DNA of 49,477 nt from Candidatus Paceibacter sp. (GTDB taxonomy: Bacteria > Patescibacteriota > Minisyncoccia > UBA6257 > JAGOQP01), in contig DYGB01000002.1 of the NCBI GenBank assembly GCA_020724905.1, positions 93,425 through 142,901 of the forward strand, in the 5' to 3' direction. Made by a program: the position numbers and the translations under genes. Below are positions 128 to 40,534 of this stretch, one piece after another (positions within the stretch are counted from its first letter, which is position 1; every line of letters begins with the position of its first letter). The notes under the pieces are model-generated. The model ran no database searches and had not been told where the DNA came from. It worked only from the letters and a program-made list of their open reading frames with translations.

Positions 128-136
128 TTATCCACT
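128..136 (+). promoter_or_regulatory. TTATCCACT box upstream of a promoter
   Basis: The 9-mer TTATCCACT lies 8 bp before a TTGACA -35 element. The same 9-mer precedes the promoter at 39365 and touches the lexA -35 at 40192. It resembles a DnaA box (TTATCCACA), but its function here is inferred only from position. Confidence 0.4.
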
Positions 137-144
137 GAGTAATT

Positions 145-173
145 TTGACAAAGCTTTTTGATATAGGTACTAT
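145..173 (+). promoter_or_regulatory. Sigma70-type promoter for a very short transcript
   Basis: A perfect -35 TTGACA (145-150), a 17-bp spacer and TACTAT as -10 (168-173) face a hairpin ending in a T-run. No plus-strand gene follows: the next gene (231-974) is convergent. The promoter therefore seems to drive only a short RNA of about 45 nt. Confidence 0.6.
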
Positions 174-180
174 GTATATA

Positions 181-224
181 TAAGAAGTCGGTATATGTGC
201 GGATAGCCATGACCGGCTTTTTTA
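181..224 (+). ncRNA. Candidate short RNA or terminator hairpin
   Basis: AAGTCGGT (185-192) pairs with ACCGGCTT (212-219), including one G-U pair, and the inner ATG/CAT can extend the stem. A run of T (218-223) follows at once, as in an intrinsic terminator. With the consensus promoter at 145-173, a transcript would be little more than this hairpin. It could instead simply stop antisense transcription into the DUF3800 gene. Confidence 0.4.
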
Positions 225-230
225 TATCTA

Positions 231-974
231 TTACACGAGGATTTCAAAAATACCAGGGTTTGTCTTGCTATTTATTTTACTATCAATAAGTTGCTTAAAC
301 ATTTTTTCAACTTGTGTAAGTTTTACTTTTTTATTCATTTTGAATTTATAAAACATACTTCCCATAATAGCAAAACTATCAGCTATTTGAATGTGTGAAT
401 CAAGATTGAGTTTATTTACCAAGCTTATTGATGTTATTTTATTTCTATATTCACTTCCCGTCATCCCTTCTGATGGAATTCCTATCTTTTGAAGTTTATT
501 GTGTGCCTGTAAGAGATATTTATCTTGGTAGGGGTCTGACTCAACGAGTAACTTTCCTTTTTTATCTTCTTTCAAGTATTTTTTACTAAACTCTTCAAGC
601 ATTTTCAAATATACCCTTTTTAGTATAGCAATATCATTCCATCCAAGTTTTTTTGCTTTTTCTTTATCAACTACGATTAACGCCATTGAAACATCAGGTA
701 TATTTATACTGTTAATATATTCACTCCAAAACTTTTCAAAGACATTGGTATCCCGAAGAATAGAGAAGGGTCCTTTTTTTCGGAGCATGTCTCTGGAATG
801 GAAAATAATATCTTCGTTATTGAAAAATTTTGATTTTATTCTCTTAATACGTTTTTCAAATTTAGGTAAGAAGTTTCCAGAAATAATGAGCCCAGACAAA
901 ATAAAAGTAGATGAGCTGTGTTTAAAGCTAGCCTTTCCGGTCTCATCTAGTGCAAGAATTTTATATTGGTCCAT
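231..974 (-). CDS. DUF3800 family protein (RNase H-like fold)
   Basis: The 247-aa protein has the DUF3800 layout. An N-terminal acidic motif (LALDETG, residues 7-13) starts the first strand, and a late conserved helix (HIQIADSFAIMG, around residues 193-204) carries the second acidic site. DUF3800 proteins are thought to be RNase H-fold nucleases and often sit near mobile or defence genes; no activity is shown here. It follows the FtsQ-like gene after 33 bp, so it may end the long ribosomal/aminoacyl-tRNA synthetase transcript or have its own weak promoter. The family call is fairly sure, the function is not. Confidence 0.7.
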   Translation of the reverse strand: MDQYKILALDETGKASFKHSSSTFILSGLIISGNFLPKFEKRIKRIKSKFFNNEDIIFHSRDMLRKKGPFSILRDTNVFEKFWSEYINSINIPDVSMALIVVDKEKAKKLGWNDIAILKRVYLKMLEEFSKKYLKEDKKGKLLVESDPYQDKYLLQAHNKLQKIGIPSEGMTGSEYRNKITSISLVNKLNLDSHIQIADSFAIMGSMFYKFKMNKKVKLTQVEKMFKQLIDSKINSKTNPGIFEILV

Positions 975-38906: not shown

Positions 38907-39302
38907 TTATTCTGTTGTCTTTCCATCAAAGTGCTCTTCATCATTGAGCGCATCTTCTTTTGTTGCGTGCTCAACCCCATCTCTATGCTCTGGAGGAGAA
39001 TAGATGGTATATATTTTAAGAGCTGTATCTTCTGAAGTATTAATGATATTGTGTTTTACTCCAGCGGGAACAACAACGGCCGTTCCATCTTCAACTGGGT
39101 ATTCGGTATCATTAAGTACTGCTTTTCCTGTTCCTTCTTCAATACGAAGAAACTGATCAAGTTCGTGAACCTCTTCACCAATGTCTTCTCCTGGTTTAAG
39201 GCTCATCACGACTAATTGGCTATGTGGTCCTGTATACAGAACCTTTCTAAAGAGTGTATTCTCTTCAGTTAATTTTTCGATATTTTGTACATATCCTTTC
39301 AT
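38907..39302 (-). CDS. Cupin-domain protein
   Basis: The 131-aa protein has the double-stranded beta-helix motifs: motif 1 GEEVHELDQFLRIEEGTGKA (42-61) with H46, D49 in place of the second histidine, and E54; motif 2 VVVPAGVKHNIINT with its histidine. The metal site thus reads H-D-E-H. Such small cupins are often annotated as mannose-6-phosphate isomerase-like, but substrate cannot be told. A TATAAT lies about 10 bp upstream of the ATG. It converges with the DUF1761 gene. Confidence 0.8.
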   Translation of the reverse strand: MKGYVQNIEKLTEENTLFRKVLYTGPHSQLVVMSLKPGEDIGEEVHELDQFLRIEEGTGKAVLNDTEYPVEDGTAVVVPAGVKHNIINTSEDTALKIYTIYSPPEHRDGVEHATKEDALNDEEHFDGKTTE

Positions 39303-39346
39303 AGCATTATAACGGGTTACTTATACTGTTTGAGAGTATACCATAG

Positions 39347-39355
39347 TTATCCACT
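39347..39355 (+). promoter_or_regulatory. TTATCCACT box upstream of the candidate RNA promoter
   Basis: TTATCCACT lies 9 bp before the TTGACA at 39365. It shares AGTTATCCACTT (12 bp) with the box at 40192-40200 near lexA, and the 9-mer with 128-136. Confidence 0.45.
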
Positions 39356-39364
39356 TCTTTGTAC

Positions 39365-39392
39365 TTGACATTATTTTAGCGTCTGGTAAGAT
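39365..39392 (+). promoter_or_regulatory. Promoter of the candidate small RNA
   Basis: A perfect -35 TTGACA (39365-39370), a 16-bp spacer and TAAGAT (39387-39392) direct transcription towards the lexA 3' end. No plus-strand protein gene follows. Confidence 0.65.
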
Positions 39393-39395
39393 ACG

Positions 39396-39464
39396 TGTAG
39401 TGCTCGTGAGGACTCCGGTTCTCATGGGCACTATGAAAACCACCATCGAAAGAGGGTGGTTTTC
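39396..39464 (+). ncRNA. Candidate small RNA with two hairpins
   Basis: Predicted to start near 39398. AGTGCTCGTGAG (39399-39410) pairs with CTCATGGGCACT (39421-39432) in a 12-bp stem with two G-U pairs and a GACTCCGGTT loop. GAAAACCACC (39435-39444) pairs perfectly with GGTGGTTTTC (39455-39464) as a terminator that also faces lexA. A 16-codon frame (ATGGGCACTATG at 39424-39474) overlaps the second hairpin but lacks support. The RNA is about 70 nt. It matches no family I know. Confidence 0.5.
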
Positions 39465-39475
39465 ATTTATATAGT

Positions 39476-40132
39476 TTATCTAAAATTCTTTAATACCCCT
39501 ACCACCTTTCCTTTTACAATAAAATCATCTTCTGGAGTGAGGTAGATAGGTGTGTGTTCTTTGTTCTTTGAGCGTGGGAATAGTCCAATCTGATTTGAAT
39601 TAATTCGTTTAAATACCTTTGCTGTTGCAACACCATCGATAATGACAGCGACAACATCTCCATTACGATATTCAGCGATATCTGGATCGATAAGGATGTA
39701 GTCACCATCTTCGATAGTTGATCCTTTTATTTCACAAGCATTCATAGAATCTCCTGCAATATGGAGTCCAAAGATATTATCACTACTTAAAAGACGTGAA
39801 GACACCTTCAAGTATCCTTCTATATTTTCTTCTGCAAAATAAGTTGGTGTTCCAGCATTAATCGTTCCCAGTATTGGAATAGAAACAAAGGCATGCTTTC
39901 TTTCTCCTACTAATGAAATATTTCTTTTCTTTTTTTCTTCATCTCGTTGTATATATCCTTTTTCTTCTAAGTTATTAAGATACATAAAGATTGTTCCAAG
40001 GCTGTTTGCTTTCATGCCTTGTTTTTGTGCCTCATCACGAATTTCTCGTACTGTTGGCATAACATATCGTACAGAGAATAGTTTCTGTATGATTTTCAAT
40101 ATTTTCTCTTCGTTTTTTGTGAGTATATCCAT
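39476..40132 (-). CDS. lexA: LexA-type SOS repressor
   Basis: The 218-aa protein has an N-terminal winged HTH (about 1-70; MPTVREIRDEAQKQGMKANS) and a C-terminal S24 peptidase domain. The self-cleavage site is A93-G94 (GTINAGTPTYF), with S129 (AGDSM) and K172 (VATAKVF) as catalytic dyad. RecA-stimulated cleavage would derepress DNA repair genes. The ATG at 40132 is chosen; 14 more codons upstream read from a TTG-type start are unlikely. The promoter at 40164-40192 carries a TTATCCACT box at its -35. The DNA operator cannot be named. Confidence 0.9.
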   Translation of the reverse strand: MDILTKNEEKILKIIQKLFSVRYVMPTVREIRDEAQKQGMKANSLGTIFMYLNNLEEKGYIQRDEEKKKRNISLVGERKHAFVSIPILGTINAGTPTYFAEENIEGYLKVSSRLLSSDNIFGLHIAGDSMNACEIKGSTIEDGDYILIDPDIAEYRNGDVVAVIIDGVATAKVFKRINSNQIGLFPRSKNKEHTPIYLTPEDDFIVKGKVVGVLKNFR

Positions 40133-40163
40133 ACTATAATGGTTGTTCAATAAACCTGATAGT

Positions 40164-40192
40164 AGTATAAACAAACTCTCCTATTTCTACAA
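40164..40192 (-). promoter_or_regulatory. lexA promoter
   Basis: On the minus strand TTGTAG (40187-40192), a 17-bp spacer and TATACT (40164-40169) lie about 32 bp before the lexA ATG. The -35 overlaps the TTATCCACT box at 40192-40200 by one base. Confidence 0.6.
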
Positions 40193-40200
40193 GTGGATAA
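40192..40200 (-). promoter_or_regulatory. TTATCCACT box at the lexA -35
   Basis: The third copy of the 9-mer, reading TTATCCACT on the minus strand and ending on the first base of the -35. It overlaps the end region of the upstream 110-aa gene. Confidence 0.45.
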
Positions 40201-40201
40201 C

Positions 40202-40534
40202 TTATTCAGTTGCCATCATAATATCTCCACATCTTTCACTGGCTGCAACTGCTCGATCTATAATGGCATCGATATAGGGTTCAGTTCCAGATAGTCTTGT
40301 CCCATCTTTGAGAACTACACTCACATCCTTGCTATGAGCTTGAAATACACTTTCTACCTCACACTGAGCTATTGCATTTTCTATACGCTCCCATGCAACT
40401 CCATCTTCATGTGTAGCATCTTCATATCCCCTGTTGTCAGAGAAAAAGATCATATACCCAGCTCCAATACAAAGAATGAGTAGTGCGATAACAAAAAGAA
40501 TATATTTATTTTTTGATGTGTATTCAAATGTCAT
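40202..40534 (-). CDS. Anchored orphan protein upstream of lexA
   Basis: I do not recognise this 110-aa protein. It has one N-terminal membrane segment (about 11-31) and a short extracellular part with two cysteines (AIAQCEVESVF, SERCGDIM) that could form a disulfide. It ends 69 bp before the lexA start. Codon use and clean reading frame support it as real; no function can be given. Confidence 0.6.
   Translation of the reverse strand: MTFEYTSKNKYILFVIALLILCIGAGYMIFFSDNRGYEDATHEDGVAWERIENAIAQCEVESVFQAHSKDVSVVLKDGTRLSGTEPYIDAIIDRAVAASERCGDIMMATE

Follow-up and report, generated by a model that had tools for sequence, protein, structure and literature searches.

The gap of 173 bp between a cupin-domain protein gene and lexA raises the question of whether it holds an RNA gene of its own and, if so, whether such an RNA would be linked to SOS control. 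A sequence-only reading had placed a compact RNA here, on the strand opposite to its neighbours and unexplained by a gene. This arrangement is confirmed: both flanking genes lie on the minus strand, the candidate RNA lies on the plus strand, and no plus-strand gene is found 3′ of it, the next plus-strand sequence being antisense lexA. A leader or riboswitch reading was rejected, since a same-strand downstream gene is absent. In the following, "the window" denotes the whole stretch of DNA that was analysed (49,477 nucleotides), on which the hairpin statistics were computed. The features of the locus are as follows.

38907..39302, minus strand: cupin-domain protein gene (Pfam Cupin_2), divergent neighbour of the RNA
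39345..39356, plus strand: AGTTATCCACTT, DnaA-box-like upstream element, 10 bp before the -35 hexamer
39365..39392, plus strand: sigma-70-type promoter match TTGACA-16-TAAGAT with a TG-extended -10; transcription start expected near 39399
39397..39434, plus strand: hairpin 1, 17 bp with four G-U pairs and a UCCG tetraloop
39399..39472, plus strand: predicted RNA of ~70 nt, its ends deduced from promoter and terminator
39435..39464, plus strand: intrinsic terminator hairpin of 10 bp and a further 2 inner bp, closed by a GAAA loop and followed by the U-rich tail ATTTATATAG
39476..40132, minus strand: lexA (Pfam Peptidase_S24 and LexA DNA-binding domain), convergent neighbour of the RNA

Fold, strand and promoter of the candidate RNA

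The arms of hairpin 1 (39397-39413 paired with 39418-39434) match with zero mismatches and close on a UNCG-type loop, cUCCGg. The stem is thus longer than the 12 bp with two G-U pairs read previously, and it is the longest perfect hairpin within the window; among 20 whole-window shuffles, the longest perfect hairpin was of 17 bp as well, a length reached once. The terminator hairpin, whose 10-bp stem had been read correctly, abuts hairpin 1 directly and has its U-rich tail on the plus side, so that the candidate ends in an intrinsic terminator of its own, as looked for in a stand-alone small RNA gene. The minimum free energy of the fold is -45.7 kcal/mol (z = -9.95); when 9,880 segments of 81 nt from the two strands of the window are compared, the candidate RNA is the most stable.

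The stability is specific to one strand. Hairpin 1 has an energy of -25.4 kcal/mol on the plus strand versus -12.7 kcal/mol on the minus strand, where the four G-U pairs turn into A-C mismatches and the stem is no longer continuous; read antisense, the complete gap yields z = -2.9. A decaying DNA palindrome would seldom acquire four changes that all spare pairing on the plus strand, which argues for an RNA read on this strand. The G-U pairs, taken earlier as a sign of RNA-level selection, do preserve the stem on the plus strand only and suggest such selection, by an argument that dispenses with homologues and that only homologues could turn into proof. Transcription of the candidate RNA from the plus strand is considered likely.

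As a sequence match, the candidate also has a promoter of its own, with the -35 hexamer at 39365-39370 and the -10 hexamer at 39387-39392, the latter preceded by TGG. The hexamers described previously as a perfect pair are present as stated; however, TAAGAT matches TATAAT at only 4 of 6 positions, and the window holds 6 TTGACA promoters of equal quality, compared with 4.2 ± 2.0 in shuffles. Since this frequency is at chance level, the hexamers prove nothing by themselves. They are accompanied by an upstream box typical of the order: TTATCCAC, the core of the DnaA box TTATCCACA, sits 10 bp upstream of the -35 hexamer, and the distance from box to -10 is 32 nt.

The inverted repeats might instead be a terminator region only, which ends the lexA mRNA on the minus strand or protects its 3′ end, the plus-strand promoter being a chance match as its hexamers would allow. 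The terminator hairpin is found 11 bp beyond the stop codon of lexA, its stability differs little between the minus and the plus strand (-15.2 versus -16.1 kcal/mol), and it therefore probably terminates lexA too. However, hairpin 1 loses half of its stability on the minus strand, the U-rich tail lies on the plus side, and the promoter is preceded, at the typical spacing, by an upstream element that recurs across the order. We regard a terminator region devoid of an RNA gene as unlikely.

It is improbable, likewise, that transcription from 39365 matters in itself, disturbing the divergent cupin promoter or, where termination fails, reading antisense into lexA, with the RNA as a by-product. The box is located between the divergent promoters, and antisense lexA is what a read-through transcript would enter. 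Against this stand the strong terminator, the mismatch-free 17-bp stem, for which a by-product has no need, and the observation that orthologous loci do not share the arrangement.

Relatives of the candidate RNA

Conservation of the stems in relatives and a match in Rfam had been proposed as checks, and neither turned out in favour of the RNA. A homologue of hairpin 1 was found neither in 244 genomes of the order and 384 genomes of the class nor in phages, plasmids, viral contigs or Rfam. DNA similarity searches of the genome itself, 61 relatives, 384 genomes sampled from the class, phages, plasmids and viral contigs gave matches confined to the generic terminator part; a multi-copy mobile element was rejected, the candidate RNA being single-copy in its own genome. 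At the gathering threshold, Rfam yields zero families over the whole window, and at permissive thresholds the best match (RNAI, RF00106) stays far below the cut-off, with 19.1 bits versus a gathering score of 47. A single-sequence covariance model retrieved only generic hairpins from the 244 genomes, the best other score being 31 bits versus 109 for the candidate itself; this top match (in genome G023) was rejected as a homologue, because it proved to be the terminator that separates a gene from tRNAs.

The neighbouring genes lead to the same result. Orthologues of lexA (56-63% identity) are followed by other sequence and by no such RNA; cupin orthologues occur in 112 of the 244 genomes of the order, and the upstream gap of 29 of them holds no such RNA. 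Hence there is no homologue to compare and no covariation evidence. Because none of the 244 order and 384 class genomes belongs to the genus of the host, the missing stem homologues are neutral to mildly negative for the RNA.

Taken together, the proposal of a small RNA of ~70 nt is supported by strand-specific stability, the terminator and an order-enriched composite promoter, and it is not supported by homologous stems. We lean towards a stand-alone small RNA gene that is specific to this lineage of its order of Patescibacteria (CPR). The small genome, together with a LexA match of 47% identity in a Moraniibacteriota record, points to the Patescibacteria. RNA polymerase would start near 39399 from the TTGACA promoter with its order-typical TTATCCAC element, transcription would halt ~70 nt later at the intrinsic terminator, and the RNA would fold almost wholly into two abutting hairpins, while the terminator would probably also end the convergent lexA mRNA. 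As hardly any bases would be left unpaired, classical seed pairing appears unlikely, and such a structured RNA would most likely bind a protein or pair via its loop rather than act as a seed-pairing antisense RNA. Protein binding as such may be its mode of action, although we would put this forward only tentatively.

The box-promoter composite, lexA and a second orphan RNA

The composite TTATCCAC-N7-12-TTGACA has 119 matches in 79 of the 244 genomes of the order, compared with 5 for the backwards control, an enrichment of about 24-fold. A -10 hexamer follows at 15-19 bp in 20 of 30 composites sampled, and TTATCCAC is commoner than its backwards control in 13 of 13 genomes of the family. In a set of 89 TTATCCAC sites drawn from five genomes, -10 hexamers are most frequent at 28-33 nt downstream of the box (19 of the 89 sites; shuffle mean 4.2, maximum 14), and the spacing at the candidate RNA falls inside this range. 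A -10 in this position accompanies 18 of 52 TTATCCACA boxes versus 1 of 37 boxes that lack the final A. The box at the candidate RNA is TTATCCACT, with a final T and not the A of the consensus TTATCCACA (PMC8203912 for the DnaA box), which, like the poor -10 hexamer, counts against the RNA gene; it is a DnaA-box-like element at the fixed distance from the promoter, with the ninth base off consensus. The genes that follow the composites, named from their translations and not by family search, include tuf, mraZ, a LexA-like gene, pilins and CsoR-like regulators, besides apparent cobalamin-riboswitch leaders. A fixed box-promoter spacing across an order was not found described in the literature searched.

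In the whole genome the composite has exactly 2 copies, both of them in the window and each before an RNA without a gene. The second copy belongs to the following pair.

128..226, plus strand: second orphan RNA, preceded by TTATCCACT and TTGACA-17-TACTAT; convergent with the DUF3800 gene
234-974, minus strand: DUF3800 gene, partner of this RNA

The RNA at 128-226 is a short hairpin RNA (GTCGGTATATGTGCGGATAGCCATGACCGGC). It recurs with the DUF3800 gene in identical arrangement in genomes of two other families (G030, locus L197, and G236, locus L200), so that the pair is present in 3 of the 244 genomes. By this recurrence it is a real conserved RNA; it matches no Rfam family and is likely to be a new DUF3800-associated RNA.

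Two further sites may encode orphan RNAs. A TTATCCACA promoter in the same genome (L127:1543-1770; G000 C7, ~106042) has no gene after it and a strong terminator ~180 nt on, and is a possible third orphan RNA. In a relative (L242; G083 C2:8657), a composite promoter is followed by two short hairpins that end in a terminator, again with no gene, which makes it an orphan RNA candidate.

Regarding lexA, two sites upstream of the gene are relevant.

40143-40156, minus strand: GGTTTAWTGAACAA, candidate LexA operator in the lexA leader, just before the start
40191..40202, minus strand: second exact AGTTATCCACTT, upstream of lexA

The proposed SOS link, i.e. control of the candidate RNA by LexA, derives some appeal from the adjoining lexA and from the 12-mer AGTTATCCACTT, which has only 2 exact copies in the 576-kb genome, one upstream of the RNA and one upstream of lexA. 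TTATCCAC moreover lies upstream of lexA in 5 of 5 genomes read, and before LexA-like genes in other genomes. However, this box is not specific to LexA, because it also precedes tuf, mraZ, pilin genes and riboswitch-like leaders, and the shared 12-mer is thus a general element of the DnaA-box type. The likely LexA operator of the lexA leader is missing at the RNA: GGTTTAWTGAACAA, the candidate operator, is conserved in the lexA leader of two relatives (L063 and L064), with partial conservation in a third (L065), and it occurs with ≤3 mismatches only at lexA in the region and nowhere at the RNA promoter. An RNA under LexA control is hence very improbable, and a shared, possibly replication-linked control of the RNA and lexA is a fair hypothesis. 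In the same genome, a LexA/S24 domain fused to a C-5 cytosine methyltransferase-like protein is encoded at L133:1616-3184 (G000 C9, ~75615), with a TTATCCACA box upstream; LexA-like open frames of similar length were found in many relatives.

The 16-codon peptide suggested earlier (MGTMKTTIERGWFSFI, or a 24-codon form started at GTG) has an open frame in its favour, yet it would start inside the 17-bp stem and use the terminator as its coding part, it has neither a well-spaced Shine-Dalgarno sequence nor a homologue for a test of codon bias, and we consider it extremely improbable.

As for the box itself, DnaA or another protein may act there, which we suggest with reserve. It would be bolder, and appears doubtful at present, to regard a DnaA box 7-12 bp before the -35 hexamer as a replication-linked promoter class in this order that drives at least 2 orphan structured RNAs here, including the lineage-specific double-hairpin RNA convergent with lexA. 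As a search pattern, the composite could help to find promoters and orphan RNAs throughout the order, and with it a DnaA-linked transcription programme can be put to the test. Both this composite and the DUF3800 RNA are of broader interest than the candidate RNA.

Comparison with known systems

The candidate RNA is of a common type, though it occurs in an unusual organism. In the literature searched, the coverage of which is incomplete, no study of small RNAs or of promoter architecture was found for this group of bacteria, which are reduced and for the most part uncultured; as a well-formed candidate gene whose promoter belongs to a recognisable class, the RNA constitutes a concrete target in them. 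With RNAI-type antisense RNAs (RF00106) there is a weak overlap in the layout of hairpin plus terminator; however, the candidate has neither a plasmid nor an antisense partner. Like other intergenic small RNA genes of bacteria, it is short and structured, encodes no protein, and has its own sigma-70 promoter match and its own terminator. It differs from them in being nearly without an unpaired region, and so without an obvious seed, in having no conserved relatives, and in being a prediction from sequence.

The DUF3800-associated RNA motifs form a series in Rfam, of which DUF3800-IX is a named member (PMC7657543). The RNA at 128-226 resembles them in being a short, conserved hairpin beside a DUF3800 gene, and it has the same composite promoter type as the candidate; in contrast, the candidate RNA near lexA is not flanked by a DUF3800 gene, and its sequence shows no similarity with that of the RNA at 128-226. 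Compared with DnaA-regulated promoters, the box upstream of the candidate is a putative site that ends in T instead of A; its sequence and its position upstream of the promoter are those of such promoters, and in E. coli repair genes are co-regulated by DnaA and LexA.
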